Virus record (IMG/VR): IMGVR_UViG_3300017730_000002
Location: 1 to 64,000 of that record
Length of the DNA: 64,000 nt
Strand: one strand, 5' to 3'
DNA from: a virus
Shown here piece by piece: positions 4,482 to 46,695 of this stretch (its first letter is position 1; every line of letters begins with the position of its first letter). A model generated the notes under the pieces. The model saw nothing but the letters and a program-made list of their open reading frames with translations. It did no database searches and was not told the origin of the DNA. The position numbers were made by a program, and so were the translations under genes.

Positions 4482-7400
4482 TATCTAGGTGAATATAAAC
4501 CTTTCATTTCTACAAACTTAATGATCATATTAACATCTTGAGGGTTGTCTTTAATTAACTTTACAAAGTTATTATAATGTCTAAACTTTTTTCTTTGTAA
4601 TTGATCTTTATTATAATTAAGATTTACTGGATTTAAAGTTTGCACATAACCATTTGCTTGTGTATTCCATATTTGATTTTCTTCGTAATTGCCCAACAAC
4701 CTAGTTGTATTAGGTATTAACTGGCCTGTAGGAGGGTAACCTGATCCATCAGGAAACTCCCCTCTGTCTTTAGTAATATCCCAAAATTGATTAAATCTAT
4801 ACTTTTGTTCTTCTTTAGATACTAAAATATCTATAGAACCTAAATTTACATTAGGATAATTTTGAGCAAGGGCTACATTGTTTTTAGGATATATGTTCAA
4901 ATTTAAATATCCAGAAACCTGTTCTGAATTAAATATTACAGCTTGGTCAAAATTATAATCTAAAACATGAAATTGATCTACACAAAACTTACTGTCTCTT
5001 TTATAACACTCTAAATAATATTCTAAGCTTCTAACTGTAGAAACTTGCTTTCCTGTATTAAACGGAATACCAACTTCAAAAGGATATTGAACATTGTAAA
5101 AATTACAGTAATCATTACACCCAGCATTATGTTCCCATATTGATCCTATCTTTGTAGTATAATGTTTGTTTCTACCTGATAAATATAAATTAGGATGCCA
5201 GTCATGAAAAGATATCCATTGTTTAGATTTTGCATCATAGCTTATAGTCCAAGAAGCATCTTCAAAGAATCTTGAATCTCCTAGTGTTACTATAAATTTA
5301 TTATCTCTATTATCAGACATGTAATATATAAACTTATCTTTCTCTAAATACTCAACCATACCTTTATACTCAGGTTTAAGCATATAGTCTTTTTTAGAAA
5401 AGTATATTATTCCATCTGTATTATCATAACCAGCAGAGCACCCTATACCTGCTACTGGATTATCTACATGAGGGAACTCAGGAAAGTCTTCAATAAGTTT
5501 ATAAGGTAAGAACTCATTAAACCACCACTTCATATTTATCTGAGATATTTCTTGCAACCCTTGACCATAAGAAAATACCTTACCTTGCTGCTGACTAATA
5601 AAATATAATCCAGCAGGACTAGATATAATACCTAATCTATCTTGAGATGAGCCATACTCGTATTTTTTATCAGAAGCTGTGACACTTGTAGGAGTTGCAG
5701 CAAATAAACCACCATCACCTACAGTAGTAGCTACACCAACATAAGTTTCCCTCTCATCTACTCCTGCATAAACTAAAGGACTAGAATCTTCAAATGTTAT
5801 AAAAAGACCAGTCTTACCATAGTTCTTTACAGAATTTATATCGCTTCTAAAAGTTACATTGTTCAATGGTAAATATGTTAACCATCCATCTGTAGTATCT
5901 TCTTTTACTTGTGGTAGAGAGTAATTAATCCTATTAGGATAAGATGTAAAACATAAATCTGCCACAGTAGGATCATAAGTTTTATTTTGTAATACACCTT
6001 GAGTAAAGTATTGATTGAATACAAATCTAGAAGAGCTTAAAGAATAATCATAAATATACTTATTACCTTTTTCAATCATTGCAGGATCCATATCAAACAA
6101 AAATTCTAAATCTGTAAATTTATATTTACTATAGAACTCTTCATAATCAAACGTTCCTCTTGATCTAAAATCTACAAGTACTTCCGACTCTACAAAGAAA
6201 TCTCTAATACCATTATTAGATAAATAAAAATAGTCATTCTTAACACCCAAAAAGTTAATACCCTTTCCGTCTAAGTTATAATAACTACTTGGTGTTAATC
6301 CTGATCCAAAGTTATTATCTGTTATTGCATCAAGTATATTAGATACATTGTAAAGATCTGAAAAATCCCAAGGTTCACTATTAGCCCAATATCTTGGATA
6401 AGGAACTAAAGGACTCATAAAATAATTATAAGGCGTATTTTCAGAAACATCAAACAACCAGTTATAAAAGAAAGGCATTATATTCTTTTCTGTAAATCTA
6501 TTTACATAAGTATCTCCTCCAAAAAATACAGGGGTCTTACCTATCTTATTATGTATTAGTGGGTTAGTACAGTCAGCTACCGTATTGCCAAAATTAGTAA
6601 TTGATAAATTATCAAAATTAATATCTTGTTCACAGGGAGTTGCAACAATCTGTTGTATATTTTCTAATTGTCCATATTGATTTCTTATACTAAATTTTAA
6701 TCCAGCGTAGTTGCTAGCAATTTTATTTGTAAAAGGAATTACTTTACCATTAGTACTAAAGCTAACACCCGCATCTCCATGTACACTATTTTTTTGTGCA
6801 ACACCTAAAGTCATTAAGGATTTATCAACACTTGTGGTATTAGGATCTAAAGTATTACCGCTGTCATAAATAAATCTAGGTCCTATATTTAATCCATTTC
6901 CTGACTCTGTTCTTAATACAGTTAACCTAGGTCTTTTTCTATTATTAATTCTATACCTTACTGAATCTCCCGCATTATTTTGAAATTCAGGAAAATCTTG
7001 TACATCATCAAAAACATAAATACCATCAGCCATTTGAAATCTACTTGGCCAGCTTGTTGGTGGAACTACCCACTTTTTATAATCACCATGACTGATTTGT
7101 TCTAAAGCATATTGCTGTGCTCTAACTATTTCAGTCATTAATCTTATAGTAACTTGAGCACCTTCTAGAAAGTAAAAAATAACTTGTCCAAGTCCTACGC
7201 CTGCTGGTAGAAGTTGTGCACCAGAATAAGATTTAGAATACCCAGGAGTAGTATAAACTTTTGATAAATTAGCTACTGCAAGATTTTTAGCATTAGCTGC
7301 GGTAGCAAGAGAATCGCCACCTGCTAAATCTAGAAAAGCTCCTCCATTTCTATAAGCAGCAATAGCTGCATTATAACCTGGTATAATTCCAGGTATAAAT

Positions 7401-24801: not shown

Positions 24802-26100
24802 TTAAAATCTTTTGAACATATTGTTCTTTCTTTGTACTGTTGTTTTTTTAGCAGTTCTTCTTGCGTTATTGTTTTCATTTGAAGCTCTAGAAGAACTTGT
24901 ATTTTTTTGTGACTGTGCAGTTTTAAGTTTTCTTACTGTATCTGCAACAGCCGCTTGACCACCAAGACTTTTAACTTTACTTTTGTATCCATCTGGATCA
25001 GAAAGTAACCATAATGCTTCTGCAATTAGATCATGTCTTGGTTCTACAAACTGATACTTTTCAAGAAGGTGACCTAATAAGTTCGTAGGTTTACCTGATA
25101 TAGAAGGATAGTTAGGTTGAACTAAACCACCATATAAATGATTTTGTGTTTTTCTATCTAATTTAAGATCTCCCAATTGACCTGTAGAAAGAGTGTTATA
25201 TACATTATCCATATATTGTGCAGCAGCATGTTCTTGTTGGGCTTTTTTCTGCTCTTGTTCTGCAAGTTGATGAGCCACAATTTGCTCTTGCATTTTATCC
25301 AACTTAGGTTTAAACTGCTTTGCTTTCTTTTCAAGCTTTTCAATGTCAGCCCAAGTTTCAATTTCTTCTTGAATTTCTTCAGGTGTACCAAAATTAGTAG
25401 CTGTAAGATATTGTCTTGCAATCTCCGCCTGATGGTTTTCATTTTCAGGGTCTAATTGAACTATTTCCTCTACATGAGAAAGGGTTCTAAATAAACCTTT
25501 CATATCAGTACCACCATCTGCAACATATTTAGCAGCTACCTGAAGTTCTTGAGGAAGTGAATTAAAAAACTCTTTGGGAGTATCTTGTCTAATTTTAGTT
25601 TCTCTTTCTTGAAAGTTAGCTTCAAATAGTTCTCTAAAATCTTTAGTAGTATAATCTTCTAAATCTTTATCATCGTCAAATCCGAAAAGAGTTCCTTCTT
25701 CAATCATCTTAGCAGCTAACTCTTGTAAACCACTTTTATCAGTTTTACGTCTACCAGGTTTAGATCCTGCCGTTTCCTCTTCAGTAATTGCATCATCTAG
25801 TTCAGCTAATGCATCATCTACCACAGAGTCTGGAGTAGAATCAATTTTTTCCTGTGGGGTTAAATCCTTGTCAGGAGTTTCAGTTGTAGTGTTAGTCTTG
25901 TCAATGAACGTTGTATCAACTTCTTCTGGTCTAGAGAAGAGGTTTGATTTTTTTTCTTCTGGTTCTGGTTCAACTTCTTCTGCTGGTAACATTACACTCT
26001 CAGCTCCTGGTTGACCAAATACTTCGTCTAAATTTACATCTACAGTCTCTACCGTTGTAGAGTCTTGTATTTGAGTTTCCTCATTTAATTCTTCTGCCAT
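24802..26100 (-). CDS. acidic scaffold-like head protein
   Basis: This 432-residue protein has a very acidic, disordered N-terminal 120 residues (VEPEPEEKKSNLFSRPEEVD). A helical coiled-coil region (EKLEKKAKQFKPKLDKMQEQ) spans about residues 245-290. It ends in a Ser/Asn/Lys-rich basic tail (KKTTVQRKNNMFKRF). An acidic helical protein between portal and capsid with a basic C-terminus fits a scaffolding protein. No protease triad was seen. It begins 104 bp after the portal stop, following a TATATTA box lacking a clear -33 TTG. Confidence 0.55.
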   Translation of the reverse strand: MAEELNEETQIQDSTTVETVDVNLDEVFGQPGAESVMLPAEEVEPEPEEKKSNLFSRPEEVDTTFIDKTNTTTETPDKDLTPQEKIDSTPDSVVDDALAELDDAITEEETAGSKPGRRKTDKSGLQELAAKMIEEGTLFGFDDDKDLEDYTTKDFRELFEANFQERETKIRQDTPKEFFNSLPQELQVAAKYVADGGTDMKGLFRTLSHVEEIVQLDPENENHQAEIARQYLTATNFGTPEEIQEEIETWADIEKLEKKAKQFKPKLDKMQEQIVAHQLAEQEQKKAQQEHAAAQYMDNVYNTLSTGQLGDLKLDRKTQNHLYGGLVQPNYPSISGKPTNLLGHLLEKYQFVEPRHDLIAEALWLLSDPDGYKSKVKSLGGQAAVADTVRKLKTAQSQKNTSSSRASNENNNARRTAKKTTVQRKNNMFKRF

Positions 26101-26203
26101 GTGTCAGTTTTTGTTGGTTATTACTTTAATATACTAAATTAAATCTTAAAAATTTAAAATTATGCAAAAAAAATTATCAAAAAATTTGCATTATATAGCT
26201 AAA

Positions 26204-28966
26204 CTATTTTTTTTTATCATCCTTTGATGATTTAACATCATACTTATTTTTATTTTCTTTGGCAATTTGCAACTGTTTATCTGCTATTTGTGTCTGAGCA
26301 TTAATTCTTTTTTGCTCAATATCCATTTTCTGCTGATGTTTCAACATATCATTGCTTTGCTTTTGTCTTTGTATTTGAGTCTGCTGTTGATATTGATCTG
26401 TTTTTCTAATGTCTTCCATTGCATCTTGATAATCTGACTGCATGTTTTTATCAAGATCTGCCATAGATCCATAACCAGCTGCTCTAATTTCAGCAATAAG
26501 AATATCTTTACGATCTCTTTTTTCAGCTTCTGCAACTTTAAAATCTCTTTCAGCTTGTTTTTCTTGTTGTTCAGCTTGAATTTGTTGTTCTTGCATTTGC
26601 TGTTGCTGTTGCATCTCTTGTTGTTTCTGTTGCTGCTGTTTTTGTTCAGAATCTTTCATAGCTGCATTTAACTCTGCAATAGAATCAGATTGTACAATTT
26701 TACCAAGATCATAGATACTAGCACCTGTAGTATTATTTTGAGTTGCCATTTGCTTTAGCTGTTCTAAGACAGCTCTATGATTAGCTGTTGTTGATGCAAA
26801 TATATTAAGATCTCTCATCAACATATCAGTACCATTAATTTCAAAGTTAACCTTTTCATCTGCAGAAGTTATATAAGTTAATCTTGCAGACGGTTTAGTA
26901 GAGTTATAGAACTGAGCTAAATCAGTTCTCATTTGATGAACTCTAGGCATTAGATAATCGCAATGTTGAATAAAGTATGTTTCTGTTTGAGCATAAGATG
27001 CATTAGCAGCTTGTTCAACACCAGTTGCTGTCATCTGAGAAATTTGCTGACCCATTCTTTGTGGGTTAACTCCAATTACTTCATAAGCCTGTTGTTTAAA
27101 ATGGTTAGATAATTGAATTCTAGACATAAGTCTATTAGTCTGATCTAAATCAAGTTTCTGAAAGTGTTGAAAGTTTAATGCATTTTCTGTGTTTGTAATA
27201 GAAGTATCTAAGGGCAACATCTGAAAATCTTTCATAGCAACATATGCTTTAGCTAAATTACCTTTACCCCAATCTTCTCCTAGTGAATGTTTAGGTAATG
27301 TATTTTGATCTAGCATAATTATGGTACCCAGTTCATCTACTAAAATATCTGCTATTTGATTATTGACAATATTGTAACCTATTTGAAAAGGTTTCATTAA
27401 ATCTATAAGAGCTGTAGATTTTGTATTCCTATCAGAGAACACGGCTCCCTCAACAGGTAGTTTACAACCATAAAGATTATTGTCACCTTTAAATTGAAAC
27501 TTTATAGGGCCAGGTTTTTTCTTATCTATTCCTATGTAAATAGGAGTCATACCTGATGGATTATTCATACCCCAATAACTAGGAATATTAGGACCAATCT
27601 TGATTCCTCCCCAAACTTCGTTTATCCAAATCCATTCAATATGTTCTCCAAATATTAAATTATCTTTTGATTTGTTTTTAAATAAACGAGTATCATAAAT
27701 AGGTTTATCTGTAATTTTATAATCCTCTGTTATAATTTCATTTGTTACCTCACCTTGTTCAGAAATTTTTGTAAGGTGACCTAATTTTCTTTGAGACTTC
27801 CAATATGTAGTTGTTACTCTAACTAAATATGCATTACCCTCTGTTTTATAATCTTCACTCTGTGCTAATATTTGATTTACTACATCCTCACCTTGTGTAA
27901 TACCTTCACCGCCCATAAAGCTTGTATATTGACGCATAGCTAAAGATGGTCTTTGAGTATTCCACTCATGGGACTGAGTAGCATCATAAAAAGAACCATC
28001 ATTTTGATAACCACCTATAGTATACCCAGCAGCTCTTACTGGATATATTGCCTCAAGAGATTCTAATTGTTCTTCAGACATTAAGTATCCGTATTTATCA
28101 ATTGCATCTGAAACAGTAATCATATCTGTCTTACCAATCCAATTGGAATCTGAAATATATCTTGAATCAGGAGACTTATGGTAAAATGTAAGCAATGGAT
28201 TCCACAACTCTACTTCATAATCATCCTCCATCATTCTCATATGCCAAAACTCTCTATCGGTAATAAGCATATCTCTAAAAGCTCTTTCCTCTAATTCATC
28301 TAAATGAAATCTTTGCTCATCTACTTTATGCTGATGAGAAGCCCATTCTTCCATCATAGATCTGTAACTTTTTTTGAAGAACATTTCTATTTCTGGTAAT
28401 GATTTTAAATTATCTGGAGATAACTGTTGTTGTGCTTCTTCAGAATTAGGATCTAAACCTTGCTCTAAAAGAGCAGCTGTTATTTTAGTTTGAGCTTGTC
28501 CAAGAAGTGTTTCTTCAACCATTGCTCTTTTTTGCTCAAGCATTTCATTATAAGAAAATTCATCAACAGCTCTATATGTTAATTTGGTTGATCTTTTAGC
28601 AAATTCTGCAACAAGAACATTAACTACGTTTGGTATAATAGGATAAAACTTTAACTCTAGCGCAGAACCTTCATCTTGATTTTCGGTTAACATGCTTACA
28701 ATATCCCTAGATTCATTGTCTTCTTCTACTATATAATCAGTTCTGTCAATATGACCTTTAGCTAACTTATAATTTTTAGAAAGTCTTCTTGCACTTCTTT
28801 GCAACTGTTTGATACCATTCCACTCTAACCAATCAATATTCCAAGCAGCCCATTCATCATCCTTTTTCTTTTTTGATAAAAATTGTAAAGGTTGTGTTAC
28901 AGAACCTATTCTATTCTGCTCAACCTTTGCGCCTTTTTTTATCTGAAGTGCATTGTATACTTGCAT
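26204..28966 (-). CDS. portal protein
   Basis: This 920-residue protein lies 6 bp after TerL. The N-terminal and central regions match the long crAss-type portals (LKFYPIIPNVVNVLVAEFAK; REFWHMRMMEDDYEVELWNP). A central wing/stem follows, then LNFQHFQKLDLDQTNRLMSR and TATGVEQAANASYAQTETYF, typical of portals. The last 170 residues form a Gln/Lys-rich coiled coil (KQQEMQQQQQMQEQQIQAEQ) unusually long for a portal. Dodecameric DNA gate at one capsid vertex is family knowledge. Confidence comes from order, length and these segments. Confidence 0.75.
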   Translation of the reverse strand: MQVYNALQIKKGAKVEQNRIGSVTQPLQFLSKKKKDDEWAAWNIDWLEWNGIKQLQRSARRLSKNYKLAKGHIDRTDYIVEEDNESRDIVSMLTENQDEGSALELKFYPIIPNVVNVLVAEFAKRSTKLTYRAVDEFSYNEMLEQKRAMVEETLLGQAQTKITAALLEQGLDPNSEEAQQQLSPDNLKSLPEIEMFFKKSYRSMMEEWASHQHKVDEQRFHLDELEERAFRDMLITDREFWHMRMMEDDYEVELWNPLLTFYHKSPDSRYISDSNWIGKTDMITVSDAIDKYGYLMSEEQLESLEAIYPVRAAGYTIGGYQNDGSFYDATQSHEWNTQRPSLAMRQYTSFMGGEGITQGEDVVNQILAQSEDYKTEGNAYLVRVTTTYWKSQRKLGHLTKISEQGEVTNEIITEDYKITDKPIYDTRLFKNKSKDNLIFGEHIEWIWINEVWGGIKIGPNIPSYWGMNNPSGMTPIYIGIDKKKPGPIKFQFKGDNNLYGCKLPVEGAVFSDRNTKSTALIDLMKPFQIGYNIVNNQIADILVDELGTIIMLDQNTLPKHSLGEDWGKGNLAKAYVAMKDFQMLPLDTSITNTENALNFQHFQKLDLDQTNRLMSRIQLSNHFKQQAYEVIGVNPQRMGQQISQMTATGVEQAANASYAQTETYFIQHCDYLMPRVHQMRTDLAQFYNSTKPSARLTYITSADEKVNFEINGTDMLMRDLNIFASTTANHRAVLEQLKQMATQNNTTGASIYDLGKIVQSDSIAELNAAMKDSEQKQQQQKQQEMQQQQQMQEQQIQAEQQEKQAERDFKVAEAEKRDRKDILIAEIRAAGYGSMADLDKNMQSDYQDAMEDIRKTDQYQQQTQIQRQKQSNDMLKHQQKMDIEQKRINAQTQIADKQLQIAKENKNKYDVKSSKDDKKK

Positions 28967-40834: not shown

Positions 40835-41687
40835 AGTTGTACATAATATTTCCATCACCATCTATTACCAAACCTTTGTAATCTTGTTTTACTTCTTGAC
40901 CCATTAAGTTATATCTTCTTGGATCCGTAAATACACTACGGTATACATACACGGGACCAAAGGTTTCTTCTTTACCATCTATATCAATCTGAATTAACTT
41001 ATAGTAGTTATATCCATATTCTATACGTGTATCAAAGTATTTATATGTTAGTTCTGTATTACTAAACCCCGCTGCAGGAATCTCATCCTGGTACCCCCAG
41101 GTGGTTCCATCCAAAGATTTATATAAATCAAACTTCAGTGAGTTGTTTTCTGATGCTGTAACCCATTTAACCATATTACCTTGGTCTTGCAAGCTTGCAG
41201 AGAAATCCAACATTTCAACAGGTAATGGCGCTGTATTCCTAATTTCAAAAAAATCAATATGGCAATATTTACCATCTAACAAACCCGATCCAAACGTAGT
41301 ATTAAGAACTAACGCAAAAGCTAATGTTGTATTAGGAACAGTAATCATGTAATATCCATTAAGATCAGATATATCATAATAAAACCAACCACTATCATAA
41401 AAATACAAAGCAAAGACATCACCTAGCCTTACATTACTTTCCTGATACCACGAGACCTCCACTTCTGCATATGTACTAAAATCATATATAGGTGACTGAA
41501 ATACATAAAATTCATTTTCCAAATAGTTACCAGAAAGGTTATAACATAGATCACCACTGTGTGAACCAGTGTTGCCACCAGGGCTTGTCCACTCATCAGG
41601 ACCATCAAATGAGTCAAAAGGTTCAAAAATCTGACCATAACCAAATAAACATAACAGTGTAAATAATAAGAGTAATATAGTTTTCAT
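40821..41687 (-). CDS. secreted protein resembling Bacteroidota T9SS cargo
   Basis: 288 residues from ATG 41687. The signal peptide (MKTILLLLFTLLCLFGYGQ) ends in the YGQ/Q pattern common in Bacteroidota. A jelly-roll-like beta domain follows, then PLPVEMLDFSASLQDQGNMV KWVTASENN (given in pieces), the linker that precedes type IX sorting domains in host cargo. The end, RRYNLMGQEVKQDYKGLVI, resembles a type A T9SS sorting signal (YNLxGQEV...KGLYI). This is unusual for a phage. It could be acquired from a host and act on the surface of the infected cell or be packaged in the virion. Confidence 0.6.
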   Translation of the reverse strand: MKTILLLLFTLLCLFGYGQIFEPFDSFDGPDEWTSPGGNTGSHSGDLCYNLSGNYLENEFYVFQSPIYDFSTYAEVEVSWYQESNVRLGDVFALYFYDSGWFYYDISDLNGYYMITVPNTTLAFALVLNTTFGSGLLDGKYCHIDFFEIRNTAPLPVEMLDFSASLQDQGNMVKWVTASENNSLKFDLYKSLDGTTWGYQDEIPAAGFSNTELTYKYFDTRIEYGYNYYKLIQIDIDGKEETFGPVYVYRSVFTDPRRYNLMGQEVKQDYKGLVIDGDGNIMYNFEDK

Positions 41688-42034
41688 ACTATAAGATAAC
41701 AATATCTGCGGACATTCCCAAGTGTAATGGATCTACGGAGGTAGAAATGTTCTATGCAAGACATTGTAGTGACTCTTGTATCAGATGGCCCCCACCACCT
41801 ACCACCCTGTTGGTACCCCCCTATGATTTGTACAGGAGAATGTGTTTTTGCTGACACAAAACCAAAAAAGCATGCTGCTGAGAAAAGTTTAGCAGGGTTG
41901 TGCAAGGTGCAAGACACAGTGGTGCTTTGTGTTGTGTAGTTTCTTTTTGTTTAGTTTGTAGATTATCCTCTGTCACATGGATTAAGTTCCATAACAAGAT
42001 AAGACTGTAAAGTCCAGTATAAAGCAAACTCCTA
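41688..42034. other. divergent intergenic region between late (minus) and early (plus) modules
   Basis: About 350 bp with higher GC than the flanks and no convincing gene. A plus-strand frame at 41754-41939 (or from 41821) is Cys-containing and ends just before a TTTCTTTTTGTTTAG box, so a peptide cannot be excluded. Hairpin ACACA...TGTGT precedes that box. Likely holds divergent promoters and possibly the start of the small-RNA string. Confidence 0.4.
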
Positions 42035-42083
42035 AGCCCTACAAGTTGAAATCATATACACTTGAGGGCTTTCTTTTTTTTTA
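42035..42083 (+). terminator. hairpin and T9 tract closing small unit 1
   Basis: AGCCCT (42035-42040) pairs with AGGGCT (42065-42070), followed by TTTCTTTTTTTTTAG. The preceding 95 bp (41958-42034) shows no ORF and may be a small RNA. Confidence 0.6.
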
Positions 42084-42214
42084 GTTTGTAAAGTTTTATA
42101 CTATTCAAAGAAACAATCACCTTGTGTGCACAAGTGGGTGGACAGCATTGTTGAGAAGAGTATATGTAATTAGGGACAATGTACAGTAAGGTACATCCCT
42201 TTCTTTTTTTTTAG
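42084..42214 (+). ncRNA. candidate small RNA unit 2
   Basis: About 115 bp without an ORF, starting with the leader-like GTTTTATACTATTC. It ends in hairpin AGGGA(caa)TGTAC-agtaag-GTACATCCCT and a T9 box. CTTGTGTGCACAAG (42121-42134) is a further palindrome. Interpreted as a terminated small transcript; expression unproven. Confidence 0.4.
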
Positions 42215-42329
42215 TTCTGAGGTGCAATGCAAACCTCCCGCTAAAGCACTTAGCCTTTAACACACACATAAGGGGAGGAACATTCTCAGACGTGAGAGAA
42301 AACAATGGTTAAGGCCCATTGTTTTTTTT
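42215..42329 (+). ncRNA. candidate small RNA unit 3
   Basis: No ORF. Hairpins GAGGT-gcaatgcaa-ACCTC and TCTCA-gacg-TGAGA precede a strong terminator AACAATGG-ttaaggc-CCATTGTT followed by T8 (42301-42329). A separate TTTC-T9-AG box follows. Confidence 0.45.
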
Positions 42330-42374
42330 GTGTTGTTTCTTTTTTTTTAGTGTTGAACTTTTAAAACCCATACT

Positions 42375-42548
42375 ATGAAAAATACTAAAGTTCAAATCTT
42401 TTCTGTTCCTTGTAATGAGGCTGAAGCCATTACTGCGGTTCAGAAAAAGATTAATCAGTGGCTTACCACTGGCTTATTAATCAAATATGAAATGCACACT
42501 ACTGCTACTCATATTGTGTTTAATGTTGCATTGAGAAAAGAGGCTTAG
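42375..42548 (+). CDS. 57-residue small protein
   Basis: ATG at 42375 in TACTATG context. Product MKNTKVQIFSVPCNEAEAIT, then VQKKINQWLTTGLLIKYE and a beta end (HTTATHIVFNVALRKEA). A compact alpha/beta peptide. Its TAG stop lies inside the terminator stem AGAGGC-ttag-GCCTCT. Small early protein of unknown role, possibly host takeover. Confidence 0.5.
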   Translation: MKNTKVQIFSVPCNEAEAITAVQKKINQWLTTGLLIKYEMHTTATHIVFNVALRKEA

Positions 42549-42571
42549 GCCTCTTTTGTTTCTTTTTTTTT

Positions 42572-42690
42572 ATTAACTAAGTAGTGTAACACCTTAAAAC
42601 GATTATATCCTTGATGTGCTAGTGTGCATAACCACACAGGTTTATTAGAAGTCCTTAAAAGTAGCGGAGGAGGTGGCACTACTTTTTTCC
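42572..42690 (+). ncRNA. candidate small RNA unit 4
   Basis: No ORF. Hairpin GTGTG-cataac-CACAC is followed by terminator AAAAGTAG-cggaggaggtggca-CTACTTTT with T6, then a distinct TTTC-T9-AG box at 42693. Confidence 0.4.
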
Positions 42691-42727
42691 TTTATTTCTT
42701 TTTTTTTAGTTAGGAAAATTATATACT

Positions 42728-42868
42728 ATGAGAAAGAAACATTTGATACCCGTTGTTTGGTTTAGTGTAATTATCCTAATTGCAACACTATTATGTTCCT
42801 GTGGATCAGGAAAAGTTAGCTGTGATGCATATGGTTCAATTGATAACACTGAAATAGATAAGGCTTAA
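42728..42868 (+). CDS. 46-residue lipoprotein (paralogue of the one at 48066)
   Basis: ATG in TACTATG context. MRKKHLIPVVWFSVIILIAT then LLCSCGSGKVSCDAYGS: basic start, one membrane span, lipobox ending at Cys, followed by a short Cys-containing tail. The CGSGKVSCDAYG segment is repeated as CGTGQVSCDAYG in the protein at 48066. TAA is inside terminator stem AAGGC-ttaaca-GCCTT. Candidate envelope-located early protein, for example superinfection exclusion (inference). Confidence 0.55.
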   Translation: MRKKHLIPVVWFSVIILIATLLCSCGSGKVSCDAYGSIDNTEIDKA

Positions 42869-42906
42869 CAGCCTTTTCTTTTTTTTTAATTAATAAAATT
42901 AAAAAT

Positions 42907-42993
42907 ATGAAAACAGTTGGATTAGATACGTTTACTACAGTAATACTAATGACATACTTTGTATGTGGTTTAATAGTTGGTTTATGCAGTTAG
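42907..42993 (+). CDS. 28-residue membrane micro-protein
   Basis: ATG at 42907 encodes MKTVGLDTFTTVILMTYFVC then GLIVGLCS: one hydrophobic helix. TAG leads directly into terminator GGGGC-tctc-GCCCC and T9. The gene-box-terminator frame matches its neighbours, which supports it being real. Confidence 0.4.
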   Translation: MKTVGLDTFTTVILMTYFVCGLIVGLCS

Positions 42994-43046
42994 GGGCTCT
43001 CGCCCCTTTCTTTTTTTTTAATTGGGAAATTTTAAAATATAATACT

Positions 43047-43394
43047 ATGAATGAAGAAAAATTTATTGATGTAAATGGTTTCCAAGTTATGGACTTAGCT
43101 CCTGATATGCAAAGAAAGTTAGCTTTAGTTGATTTAGATGTGTTAGTTGAGATAACAAACTCACTTCAGAAAGTTAACTCTCGTATAATTAAGCAAGATT
43201 TAATTGCAGAACTTCAATCTGTAACTAATAATGGAGAACTAACGCGAATGCAACAGTTGCTGTATATTTGTGAAAAGTTTGTTACACTTCACAAGACTGT
43301 TTTGAAAATTCAAAATATTGAGCATCCTTTAAATGAAAAAGCAGTAGCTGACCTTAATCCAATTAAAGGTAAAGACATTAGTGACATAAGTTAG
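43047..43394 (+). CDS. 115-residue helical early protein
   Basis: Start ATG 43047 (TACTATG context) rather than an upstream in-frame ATG within the T-box. Helical, with DMQRKLALVDLDVLVEITNS and LQQ-type heptads, ending DLNPIKGKDISDIS. It has a T-box leader upstream and terminator GCCCC-ttcg-GGGGC downstream. No family recognised. The acidic-hydrophobic end resembles the ends of two other proteins in this module. Confidence 0.5.
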   Translation: MNEEKFIDVNGFQVMDLAPDMQRKLALVDLDVLVEITNSLQKVNSRIIKQDLIAELQSVTNNGELTRMQQLLYICEKFVTLHKTVLKIQNIEHPLNEKAVADLNPIKGKDISDIS

Positions 43395-43399
43395 TGTAT

Positions 43400-43427
43400 A
43401 GCCCCTTCGGGGGCTTCTTTTTTTTTA
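43400..43427 (+). terminator. UUCG-capped intrinsic terminator
   Basis: AGCCCC-TTCG-GGGGCT followed by TCTTTTTTTTT. Perfect C(UUCG)G tetraloop. Confidence 0.85.
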
Positions 43428-43447
43428 TTTGTGAAAACTTAATTACT

Positions 43448-43810
43448 ATGGAAGAAGAATTTAAAATGGTTTGTACTGCCTCTAAAGGCAGTTATGGCAC
43501 AGGGTTTGAAGACGTGTTTGATAACATTGAAGACCTTAAGAGAGCAATTGTAAAACACGAGTGTAATCCTTGGGATGAAGAAGACAACACTTATACAGAA
43601 GATAAGTATACTGATGAACTGTTTAAGGAGGTTTGCAAAGCAAAAGATTATACTGTTGTTATTGTAAAACTTCACTCATCAGAAAAGATATCATTTGATG
43701 AGTATGACGGGACATCATCTCCTTATATTGAGAAGATAGACCCTCAGTTTAAATCTGTAATGGAATATGCAACAGAAAGACATTGGGACTTATTGAACTC
43801 AAAGGAGTAG
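43448..43810 (+). CDS. 120-residue acidic early protein
   Basis: ATG 43448 in TACTATG context. Acidic (DVFDNIEDLKRAIVKHECNP, EDNTYTEDKYTDELFKEVCK) with a helical/beta mix. The C-terminus is VMEYATERHWDLLNSKE. No family recognised. Acidic DNA-mimic type proteins are common among early phage genes, so an inhibitory role is possible but speculative. Confidence 0.5.
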   Translation: MEEEFKMVCTASKGSYGTGFEDVFDNIEDLKRAIVKHECNPWDEEDNTYTEDKYTDELFKEVCKAKDYTVVIVKLHSSEKISFDEYDGTSSPYIEKIDPQFKSVMEYATERHWDLLNSKE

Positions 43811-43925
43811 CATTTCATAGTGCAGGGGGTAGTTCCCTTGCACTTTGTTTTGTGTATATACCACAATTTTTTTGCAAAAAATTGCATCTTCCTTTTTTCT
43901 TTTTTCTTAATTATGAAATTTATTT
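43811..43925 (+). ncRNA. structured spacer A (paired with spacer B)
   Basis: TTTCATAGTGCAGGGGG...CCCTTGCACT forms a hairpin (about 43817-43843). Downstream, CACAATTTTTTTGCAAAAAATTGCATCTT is an inverted repeat closely matching one in the spacer at 44440-44465. A diverged T-box follows before the next gene. Terminator/leader RNA or small RNA. Confidence 0.45.
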
Positions 43926-43928
43926 ATT

Positions 43929-44345
43929 ATGAAACATCAGAATTATTATTACAATTACAATTTTGCAACCAAGCAAGAAGGCTTGAGTTCATTAGACTTT
44001 GAAGAGTGTCTTAAGCAATGCACATTAGTTGCAGGTAACATAATGGCATTAGACCAATTTAATGCTATCGTACCTGTAGATGAATCCCAATGTGTGGACA
44101 TTCCTACTGCAACTGCCACTGCAAATGGCAATGGCACTTTCAGAGTACCTACCTATCCTATTGAGTTATTGGGAGACTTTACCGTAATAGAAAGAGAGTT
44201 TGACCATAGACCTTGGTTTAAATGTTGGGTAGGCAAGGGTGGATATACAATAGGGGAAAGAAATGTCAATAAAGGCTGTTTCTCTATAGTTGAAACTCAT
44301 AAAGGCTTTGTGCTGTATTTGGGACAAAGATACAGACAGTACTAA
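43929..44345 (+). CDS. 138-residue early protein, unknown
   Basis: MKHQNYYYNYNFATKQEGLS, then SLDFEECLKQCTLVAGNIMA, Thr/Ala-rich (DIPTATATANGNGTFRVPTY) and a beta C-terminus (REFDHRPWFKCWVGKGGYTI). A well-formed soluble protein of unknown family, flanked by two related structured spacers. Confidence 0.5.
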   Translation: MKHQNYYYNYNFATKQEGLSSLDFEECLKQCTLVAGNIMALDQFNAIVPVDESQCVDIPTATATANGNGTFRVPTYPIELLGDFTVIEREFDHRPWFKCWVGKGGYTIGERNVNKGCFSIVETHKGFVLYLGQRYRQY

Positions 44346-44519
44346 TATTTCATAGTGTGGGGTGTAATAGCCCTGCACTATAAATAGGTTGTCCCGTTGG
44401 GGCATAGGGCTATTGCTGTACACATATGTGGGTAATCACAATTTCTTTCAGAAATTGCATCTTTTCAGTTTCTTTTTTTTTATTTAGGAGTTTATTTATT
44501 AATTAATATATGATTTCAT
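44346..44519 (+). ncRNA. structured spacer B with 9-bp closing stem
   Basis: AATAGCCCT (44366-44374) pairs perfectly with AGGGCTATT (44406-44414), enclosing GTCCC-gtt-GGGGC. CACATATGTG palindrome and the CACAATTT...AAATTGCATCTT inverted repeat follow, then a T9 box at 44468. The start (TTTCATAGTGtGGGGT) resembles spacer A. Confidence 0.5.
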
Positions 44520-44939
44520 ATGAAACTTAAATTTGAGTTTAAAGCAGATGTCTATAACGGCATCACAAGACAAGTAGCAAATTTTACAGGTACATTAGTA
44601 TCTATTGCTAAATTACCAATCAAGAATGTCAATAACACAGAGTATTACCCTGCAACTGTTGATATGAAAGATTCTCACGGGAATGTTCGTAAAGGTACAT
44701 CTTGTATGATTTACAAAACATCCTTTGACAAAGGTATGGAGATAGGACAAGACTATCTTGGCTCCGTTACCATTGAATCAGGTAAACAACCACTTATTAA
44801 GCTTACTTCAGGTACAGGCAATGGCACTCGTGCTACTATGGACGACTTTGACTTCCAAGTTGCTCCTGCACCACAACCTGTTGCACAACCTACTCAGGCT
44901 ACTACAGCCACAGAGAGTAACCTAAGTGACATAGGATAG
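44520..44939 (+). CDS. OB-fold-like protein, possible ssDNA-binding
   Basis: 139 residues. Beta-barrel-like N-terminal 100 residues (KADVYNGITRQVANFTGTLV; YPATVDMKDSHGNVRKGTSC), Gln/Pro/Thr linker, and a short tail ATESNLSDIG. A beta domain with a flexible linker and a small hydrophobic-acidic tip is the design of SSB proteins. I cannot identify conserved aromatic DNA-contact residues, so this is a suggestion. Confidence 0.45.
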   Translation: MKLKFEFKADVYNGITRQVANFTGTLVSIAKLPIKNVNNTEYYPATVDMKDSHGNVRKGTSCMIYKTSFDKGMEIGQDYLGSVTIESGKQPLIKLTSGTGNGTRATMDDFDFQVAPAPQPVAQPTQATTATESNLSDIG

Positions 44940-45015
44940 GACAATAACACTCTGCACAGCAATGTGTGGAGTGTCCTTTCAGGCTTCGCCTATCTTATTT
45001 GTTTCTTTTTATTTA
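44940..45015 (+). terminator. terminator/T-box at the end of the early gene string
   Basis: GGACA...ACACTC (44940-44953) pairs with GAGTGTCC (44969-44976), AGGC-ttc-GCCT follows, then TTTCTTTTTATTTAG, the last and most diverged T-box. Confidence 0.5.
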
Positions 45016-45120
45016 GTTGTTAGTGTTCCACGTAACAATAAATAAAGTAATTATGGTCGTAAGGCATAGTATGTCCCTAAATGGTCATAAGAATACTTAA
45101 CATTGTTGGAACACAGATAG
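45016..45120 (+). ncRNA. structured RNA element with 8-bp closing stem
   Basis: GTGTTCCA (45023-45030) pairs with TGGAACAC (45107-45114), and inside it AACAAT with ATTGTT and TTATG with CATAA. No ORF. About 92 nt. Confidence 0.5.
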
Positions 45121-45169
45121 AATTGCGGAAATACTTATGTGTCTTAATCTGTTTTAGATAGTAAAACTA

Positions 45170-45340
45170 TACCCTATATCATTGGTTGTATATTAATATC
45201 ATAATTATTCTATAGTATATAGTATTATAATATTTTATATAGCTAACTTTTTCATAATAGGTTAAGTAATAATAGTTGTTTTCTTATATATAGGATTAGT
45301 ATACTCTCTATATAGAAGATAAGATACATAGTATCCCGCA
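45170..45340. other. extremely AT-rich unwinding-type segment
   Basis: About 170 bp of nearly pure A/T with repeated TATAGTATA/ATATTATAA words, no ORF, between structured RNA elements. It may be a replication-origin unwinding element or transcription start region; no iterons are obvious. Confidence 0.35.
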
Positions 45341-45349
45341 TTTAGATTT

Positions 45350-45606
45350 GTTTGAATAGATTTAGGAGGGAAAACCTCGGTCATAAGGTGGGCTCTTATG
45401 ATTACTGTTGACTTAGGTTCGCTACCTTCGTTGTATCAGGGCTTAGATGTTTCGTCTAGGGTTTAATAATGCCTTTGGGTTCAACTTTTCTTGGTTGGGC
45501 AAGTGCTTCGCACTTCTTGAGTATTCAAACATTAAATAGGTACAAGTAGGGTGTATTCCCGTAAATTAGTTCTTGCTAAGTTGACAGAGAGTCAAGCCTT
45601 TTTTAT
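45350..45606 (+). ncRNA. candidate structured RNA ending in an intrinsic terminator
   Basis: GC content rises sharply here. Visible hairpins: GAGG-gaaaa-CCTC (45366-45378), TCATAAG-gtgggct-CTTATGA (45381-45401), AGGT-tcgct-ACCT (45415-45427) and AAGTGC-ttc-GCACTT (45501-45515). A terminator, TTGAC-agaga-GTCAA-gcc-TTTTTT, lies at 45581-45604. No ORF over 60 codons. Length about 250 nt. Confidence 0.55.
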
Positions 45607-46412
45607 TTACAAACCTATGACTAGAGAGTCGGTCATAGTATAAATGGAATAGAAATTAGAAATTGTATAGGTTCTAACGTAATTTTAAAAGTTAGTATAG
45701 GCATACAACATATGCTTAGAGGTCTGGATGACTGTCTGTCCTTAAATGTGAACTATACTATGCAATATTTTCTTTTCGCGATTTATTATCATTTCTAATT
45801 GATATGCTTCGGCTATTAATTAGTCTTAATCCCAAGTTGTCGGGATTTAAAATCACAGATGTTGAACTGTGATATGAATTCGTTCTAATAGACAAAACAC
45901 CGTGTAATCAGTACCTTTCTTGTAAGGGGAGCAGTTGCACACAAGGGTGGATAGGACAAAGACCTTACAGGGTTCTAAAACTATCAGTGTTATATGTAAA
46001 GAGTACGGTCTGTAAACTGTACGTGGTTGCATATGAAATTAGGGATTTGAGCTACTATCCTAGTAAAACGTAAAATGCTAAGTCTTAACTAAAAACAAAG
46101 AACTGGACAATGACGTGAAGTCTAAAGCTTATGGTGTAATTAGAAGTGCCTAATCATAGTTTAGAAATGAACTGTGTTATCCCGCAAGGGGTTGTGAATT
46201 TTATGTGCCAGCATAATTGAAGCAACACTTAATTGAGATGTCATTGGCCAATGATATTGATAGAGAGTAGAATGATTACATCTTATCCTGTTACTATGCA
46301 GTCGATCATAGTATGGCAAAGTTAATGAAGGATTTTTCTATCCGTGTGCTAACCCTTACAAATTGAGGGGTCATTAACATTTTGAACCGAGTAGTGCTAG
46401 GTTCTTTTTTAT
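45607..46412 (+). ncRNA. large structured non-coding RNA candidate (about 0.8 kb)
   Basis: No coding frame. At least ten stems are visible. They include CTATGAC/GTCATAG (45615-45638), a UUCG-capped CTAATTGATATGC/GCTATTAATTAG (45795-45823), AATCCC/GGGATT (45828-45847), ATCACAG/CTGTGAT (45852-45873) and CCC-GCAA-GGG with a GNRA loop (46181-46190). A palindromic TCATTGGCCAATGA inside GATGT/ACATC and TACTATG/CATAGTA (46292-46313) are also present. A multibranch GTTAATGA/TCATTAAC (46321-46378) encloses two smaller hairpins. It ends in GAACC-gagtagtgcta-GGTTC-TTTTTT (46384-46410). Large ornate phage RNAs such as GOLLD and ROOL are comparable in size. I cannot match it to them by eye. Confidence 0.6.
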
Positions 46413-46431
46413 TCACTTAAAACATTTTGAA

Positions 46432-46695
46432 ATGGAGACATTTGTATCTTACAAAAACAAAGTAGTTAATAGACGTAATGATGATCTCGCTGAGAGTAAT
46501 TTAGTCTATCCTATTGGTAAAGGGTATCATCAAGTAGCGCAACTTGATAAATCCTGGGTATTAAAGTATTTGCGTTTGAAATTAGGTCGTGGAGTTAAAG
46601 ATATTCATAACAAGTATGTAGTTCGTATTAAGAATGATATGCTTGTATATAACTGTGACGGCAAGTATTGGTTAATTAAAAAAAATAATGACTAA
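46432..46695 (+). CDS. 87-residue basic protein, unknown
   Basis: ATG at 46432 after an A-rich leader (CACTTAAAACATTTTGAA). METFVSYKNKVVNRRNDDLA, then VLKYLRLKLGRGVKDIHNKY and a beta end. It follows the large RNA terminator by 20 bp. No family recognised. Overlaps the next gene by 8 bp. Confidence 0.5.
   Translation: METFVSYKNKVVNRRNDDLAESNLVYPIGKGYHQVAQLDKSWVLKYLRLKLGRGVKDIHNKYVVRIKNDMLVYNCDGKYWLIKKNND

Follow-up and report, generated by a model that had tools for sequence, protein, structure and literature searches.

The array described here lies in the IMG/VR virus record IMGVR_UViG_3300017730_000002 (109,286 bp), the first 64 kb of which constitute the window that was analysed (64,000 nucleotides), and comprises twelve near-identical copies of a T-rich element, hereafter the box, that punctuate a rightward string of small genes. 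Each box is probably an early promoter within a series of tandem terminator-plus-promoter units, with the virion RNA polymerase (RNAP) of the phage itself as the most likely reader; both the promoter activity and the polymerase are what we infer from the placement of the box, its independence of neighbouring hairpins and its lineage-specific turnover in related phages. An earlier note on this DNA, made from the letters alone, had proposed a dual-purpose signal, ending one unit and serving the next, and had connected it with a crAss-like virion RNAP; this is the reading that our analysis supports best.

The box and its confinement

The dozen boxes announced by the earlier note are indeed there, all on the + strand between 41940 and 45015. 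Eight are exact copies of TTTCT9A and four carry a single mismatch (TTTCTTTTTGTTTA at 41940, CTTCT9A at 43414, TTTCTTTTTTCTTA at 43896 and TTTCTTTTTATTTA at 45002). The exact word TTTCTTTTTTTTTA occurs eight times in the window, always on the + strand (42070-44482), against none in 100 dinucleotide shuffles, and is absent from the rest of the 109,286-bp record. When all of that record was scanned de novo for repeats, the same 12-member cluster came out, the next largest having five members and Markov shuffles giving at most four.

Column counts reveal an element longer than previously described, TTTCT9A-DT-NNN-KAR, in which TTTCT9A is followed by [GAT]T, three free bases and [GT]A[AG] in 12/12 copies. 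The A(G/A/T)TT that the earlier note had placed after the T-run holds as A[GAT]T in all copies, but its last T is present in only 10/12, and the K-A-R (columns 19-21), found in all 12 boxes, had been missed. The degenerate form matches exactly these 12 sites when both strands of the 109 kb are searched, a result that measures confinement and not significance, the form having been derived from the same sites. Identity is restricted to ~22 bp, with unrelated flanks. The boxes, some of which head units with no open reading frame (ORF), are as follows.

41940-41961, + strand: box 1, array head; TTTCTTTTTGTTTA with GTTTGTAG; heads ORF-less unit
42070-42091, + strand: box 2, exact TTTCT9A; heads ORF-less unit; adjoins upstream hairpin
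42200-42221, + strand: box 3, exact; heads ORF-less unit; adjoins upstream hairpin
42336-42357, + strand: box 4, exact; ATG of 57-aa gene 25 nt on; apart from the hairpin's own T8
42559-42580, + strand: box 5, exact; heads ORF-less unit
42695-42716, + strand: box 6, exact; ATG of 46-aa gene 19 nt on; apart from hairpin
42875-42896, + strand: box 7, exact; ATG of 28-aa ORF 18 nt on; adjoins hairpin
43007-43028, + strand: box 8, exact; ATG of 115-aa ORF 26 nt on; adjoins hairpin
43414-43435, + strand: box 9, CTTCT9A; ATG of 120-aa ORF 20 nt on; adjoins hairpin
43896-43917, + strand: box 10, TTTCTTTTTTCTTA; ATG of 138-aa gene 19 nt on; hairpin 11 nt before
44469-44490, + strand: box 11, exact; ATG of 139-aa gene 37 nt on; hairpin 11 nt before
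45002-45023, + strand: box 12, the last, TTTCTTTTTATTTA; followed by ~1.4 kb of ORF-poor sequence up to the next gene block

Hairpins beside the boxes

Both in this phage and in its relatives, a terminator-like hairpin precedes most boxes other than the array heads, with stems and loops that differ and at a distance from the box that varies from -2 to about +38 nt. Here the hairpin adjoins the box at 42070, 42200, 42875, 43007 and 43414, and nearly so at 42559; the boxes at 42336 and 42695, singled out by the earlier note as standing apart from it, and likewise those at 43896, 44469 and 45002, lie 6-27 nt away. A GC hairpin directly followed by a T-run is found at about half of the boxes, by overlap, the box itself not answering to this description, and most array-head boxes of the relatives are without such a hairpin (for the hairpin count, a few position weight matrix (PWM) matches unlike the seed, in loci L101, L105, L107 and L108, were removed by hand). 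The hairpins detected are these.

42034-42071, + strand: terminator-like hairpin running into box 2
42172-42200, + strand: terminator-like hairpin adjoining box 3
42295-42329, + strand: terminator-like hairpin with its own T8, 6 nt upstream of box 4
42536-42557, + strand: terminator-like hairpin preceding box 5
42657-42686, + strand: terminator-like hairpin 8 nt upstream of box 6
42860-42875, + strand: terminator-like hairpin, box 7 as U-tract
42992-43007, + strand: terminator-like hairpin, box 8 as U-tract
43400-43415, + strand: terminator-like hairpin, box 9 as U-tract
43864-43884, + strand: hairpin 11 nt upstream of box 10
44439-44457, + strand: hairpin 11 nt upstream of box 11

In five or six units the T-run is thus also the predicted U-tract of the upstream terminator. 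That the boxes are nothing else, i.e. U-tracts of ordinary intrinsic terminators made alike by base composition, is nevertheless very improbable: as the earlier note had argued, the box is kept beyond what a terminator needs, with the C, the terminal A, the T at column 15 and the A at column 20 present in 12/12 copies, some boxes are separated from their hairpin by 6-27 nt, and the relatives possess a separate T-run in addition to a box that is mostly not T-rich. On these sequence comparisons, the overlap with the terminator is a trait of the T-rich box of this phage and not of the class of boxes.

Hairpins are frequent beside the boxes. The earlier note had thought of phage N4, whose virion RNAP reads DNA hairpins at early promoters (PMC4496689), and one could imagine hairpin and T-box together forming the recognition structure. 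In N4, however, the conserved bases lie in the stem and loop, which have a fixed place around -11, whereas here they fall outside the stems, the hairpins differ in both sequence and distance, and most array heads of the relatives do without a terminator-like one, so that we regard this idea as scarcely tenable. The N4 hairpin and terminator-only readings, together with the host-promoter reading considered below, were tested by hairpin, column and consensus counts and then rejected or lowered.

Box replacement in related phages

Relatives were located through the 57-aa protein encoded at 42375, which yielded 29 loci, and boxes were compared at 17 representative loci; eighteen sets of sequences from relatives retain the arrangement seen here. 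Arrays of the literal T9 box were found in no other IMG/VR virus; 87 stretches contain one exact TTTCT9AGTT each and none of them an array, so the literal T9 array appears to be private to this phage in IMG/VR. The motif search in relatives that the earlier note had called for therefore fails for T9, which is not a conserved property, but succeeds for the class: every relative has a lineage-specific box of its own at the same position, mostly not T-rich and with a separate T-run, within the same layout of terminator, box, short leader and small gene or ORF-less unit. These boxes include AACAACTCTTACTAT, AAACATTTTATACTTAT, ACAGTTTCTTTAGA, AAGGCATTTCTTTTAT, TTTCCTCTTTATA, TTCCACTCATAATA, ATCCCCTTGTnnTACTA, TCACCTTGTnnTACTA, ATTACTGTTCTTTACTA, TAACTGTGTCTTACTA, AACTTATTTATAAG, AAATGTATTTATAAG, TTAAACTCTTGTAT, TAAACCCATTATT, ATATCAACCTACTT and AATATCATTTGAA, among others. 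By eye, their 5' half is lineage-specific, and many of the 3' halves resemble TTACTA and have a TAA or GAA a few bases further on, reminiscent of the KAR of this phage. At the 17 loci, sites in the early block score above all other sites on both strands of the same locus, and in four records of 109-122 kb all boxes fall on one strand, in a single block of 1.3-3 kb, the sole exception being one two-mismatch match in record G003.

The boxes also change in concert. Orthologous units are common to loci L110, L126, L125 and L114. L126 and L125 share a 58-aa gene whose protein and first 90 coding nt do not differ (100% identity), with boxes that are 50% identical; in five orthologues of L110 and L126, 97% identical across the first 90 nt, the box change is always the same, every copy reading ATCCCCTTG in one phage and TCACCTTG in the other. 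A cis signal that is replaced in every copy in front of unchanged genes suggests a trans-acting, genome-specific reader, which we consider likely on this comparative evidence.

Might the box instead be a recombination boundary, i.e. a short repeat for the exchange of gene cassettes, or a product of neutral homogenisation? Orthologous genes of close relatives do differ in order and neighbours, as expected of shuffled cassettes. Yet identity ends at the edges of ~22 bp amid unrelated flanks, making unselected homogenisation unlikely, and the fixed orientation and near-fixed distance to the ATG are unlike the outcome of homogenisation alone. We give this explanation hardly any weight; recombination at the boxes may be a side effect of promoter repeats.

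The near-constant box-to-ATG distance, 22-26 nt for most genes of L114, L125 and L116 and 18-26 nt here, is in keeping with a promoter but would also suit an element acting at the RNA level, with the transcribed box taking part in translation initiation or RNA processing, and a U-rich leader could bind ribosomal protein S1. But ORF-less units have boxes too, the box is not U-rich in most lineages, and its switching between near-identical genes would be needless for an element read by ribosomes; such a role seems quite improbable.

A host-type promoter, read by the Bacteroidota host RNAP alone or with a phage-encoded factor, is a more serious alternative, albeit an unlikely one. The early genes of many phages are transcribed by host RNAP, and many boxes have an AT-rich core (TTACTAT, TATACTTAT) reminiscent of a melting region. 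However, TAnnTTTG lies near only 2/141 boxes (1.4%), compared with 2.2% of random windows, and the Bacteroidota consensus TTTG-N17-22-TAnnTTTG near 0/141, these 141 boxes including the L101, L105, L107 and L108 PWM matches unlike the seed; nor would a host consensus switch in every copy between phages with early genes of up to 100% identity.

Which polymerase would read the box

By the type of its terminase, portal, major head protein and giant RNAP, the source phage is crAss-like. A family comparison of phage proteins matched its portal, terminase and major-head families with crAss-like ones, and its terminase is ~25% identical to those of Crassvirales and Fipvunavirus. The virion RNAP (vRNAP) gene, at 81906-95624 of the record, encodes 4572 aa and carries the motif DFDID, catalytic in crAss-like virion RNA polymerases. 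Its assignment as a two-barrel (DFDxD) RNAP is based on this motif and on homology among relatives, a homologous catalytic region being present in 4/4 records of 109-122 kb; a comparison with solved structures in PDB gave no match. The rightward box array begins directly beyond the point of divergence from the leftward structural genes, and in crAss001 the earliest genes are located at the corresponding place (PMC8375218).

The virion RNAP is favoured as the reader by a box that is lineage-specific and changes in all copies together. In phi14:2, another crAss-like phage, early transcription is rifampicin-resistant and performed by the vRNAP, according to a review (PMC10136315). Among the full records only G003 and G004 have similar vRNAPs (69% identical), and these two share the same box; those whose vRNAPs are 26-35% identical have different ones. 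We envisage that the virion RNAP would enter with the injected DNA and read the box, making the array a series of short transcription units, mostly of one gene, each running from promoter box through start site (~0-7 nt from the box), leader (18-26 nt ahead of a gene) and gene or ORF-less RNA to an intrinsic terminator and the next box. The specificity sequence would happen to be TTTCT9 here and could thereby serve a second time, in five or six units, as U-tract for the terminator upstream of it.

Several points weigh against this assignment. The early, first-expressed status of the array genes is taken solely from synteny with crAss001, and the correlation between box and vRNAP is thin, being based on five records. 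No repeated boxes of this kind were found in phi14:2, crAss001 (right end only), ProJPt-Bp1 or cr10_1, which makes the repeated-box design a feature of the present clade and not a general crAss-like promoter sequence; the promoters of those four phages may be fewer or weaker. Finally, the reader may be another phage-encoded one, e.g. a virion-borne factor acting on host RNAP.

As a separate observation, four copies of TTGAAGTAAGTCT occur within 0.6 kb at ~96.2-96.8 kb of crAss001 (L136, ~6170-6756), in the gap between Gp95 and Gp96.

The cultured Flavobacterium phage Fpv3 looks as if it carries the same kind of signal: a seed scan found six sites with CAAAACCCTCACTTATT or a close variant, all on one strand and at the genome ends, two of them in sequence identical at both ends. 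Motif refinement over the whole genome, without a region limit, diverged and was not used. An Fpv3 protein with DYDID is a weak match to the vRNAPs.

A literature search that covered few subscription papers turned up no description of a promoter for a crAss-like vRNAP. The boxes are short, testable templates from many lineages, natural specificity variants before near-identical genes among them, and with Fpv3 in culture they make crAss-like vRNAP recognition directly testable. We further suggest, tentatively and at somewhat less than even confidence, that early promoters in this crAss-like clade turn over rapidly and in concert, each word being matched to the phage's own injected RNAP. This would amount to a promoter-specificity switch, shielding the early transcription of each lineage from co-infecting relatives, and the boxes would then be the first promoter set for this giant virion RNAP branch.

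Small genes and candidate RNAs between the boxes

The interval between two boxes holds a single small gene, of 28 to 139 aa, except in four units of ~130 bp overlooked by the earlier note (behind the boxes at 41940, 42070, 42200 and 42559), where there is no ORF. That note had put the leader at about 30 bp, ending in TACTATG; it measures 18-26 nt from box to ATG (37 nt for the last gene), and TACTATG is present in 4/7 coding leaders.

42375-42548, + strand: 57-aa early protein, with relatives in 29 IMG/VR loci
42728-42868, + strand: 46-aa small ORF
42907-42993, + strand: 28-aa small ORF
43047-43394, + strand: 115-aa ORF
43448-43810, + strand: 120-aa ORF
43929-44345, + strand: 138-aa ORF
44520-44939, + strand: 139-aa ORF, final array gene
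41954-42069 (to 42083 on a second delimitation), + strand: ORF-less unit 1, small-RNA candidate; folds better than shuffles (z -2.7)
42084-42199 (to 42213 on a second delimitation), + strand: ORF-less unit 2, small-RNA candidate; folds no better than shuffles
42214-42330, + strand: ORF-less unit 3, small-RNA candidate; folds better than shuffles (z -2.9)
42573-42690, + strand: ORF-less unit 4, candidate small RNA; fold weakly better than shuffles (z -1.4)

Annotated phages contain no detected relative of the 57-aa protein, and neither they nor viral contigs one of the 139-aa protein; no Rfam family was found within 41600-46500. The first predicted helix of units 1, 3 and 4 starts 0, 2 and 6 nt past the box, and across phages several ORF-less units have predicted 5' helices 0-17 nt past the box and terminators at the end. 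Structured RNA starting right behind the box and ending at a terminator fits a promoter at the box. The closing ends of unit 4 (AAGUAGUG... and ...CUACUU) recur in L101 (6015-6195) and L107 (7226-7415), in a longer RNA unit that follows a different box; L113 and L116 have another RNA unit in common, of 274 nt.

The 3' regions of two neighbouring units, at 43811-43890 and 44346-44465, both contain TTTCATAGTG and a CAATTT/AAATTG hairpin followed by GCATCTT, which suggests a duplicated 3' region. Beyond the last box, 45016-46431 is ORF-poor sequence of ~1.4 kb. The word ATATAGCTAA lies 208-261 nt past the last box in this phage, L109, L113, L114, L116 and L126, with a second copy at 26192 of the window, in the gap between the leftward genes 24802-26100 and 26204-28966.

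Comparison with known systems

The N4 virion RNAP belongs to the T7-like family and not to the DFDxD two-barrel family. N4 resembles the present phage in that its early genes are read by an injected virion RNAP (PMC4496689), with the difference that this enzyme reads an extruded DNA hairpin, whereas no fixed hairpin exists here. A giant DFDxD virion RNAP for early genes is shared with phi14:2 (PMC10136315), although no repeated box was found in the early region of that phage.

In architecture, a stem-loop terminator and a candidate early promoter between small exchangeable genes, the array recalls the T4-type PeSL (promoter-early stem-loop), reportedly described by Arbiol et al. in 2010 as a terminator stem-loop beside an early promoter between small shuffled genes. 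The box, in contrast, is lineage-specific and not host-like (0/141 with the Bacteroidota consensus), while T4 uses the host RNA polymerase (PMC2988021).

Thermus phage P23-45, with the two-barrel vRNAP gp96, has AT-rich pre-early promoters and a conserved 26-nt motif at its terminators (PMC10770324). It has another host and belongs to another phage family, its promoters and terminators are mapped where ours are predicted, and the terminator here is a variable hairpin with the motif after it. The likeness is one of layout: in both phages, each with a two-barrel virion RNAP, here assigned by motif and homology, a repeated motif, here all on one strand, lies directly upstream of the first-expressed genes, so designated here by synteny.

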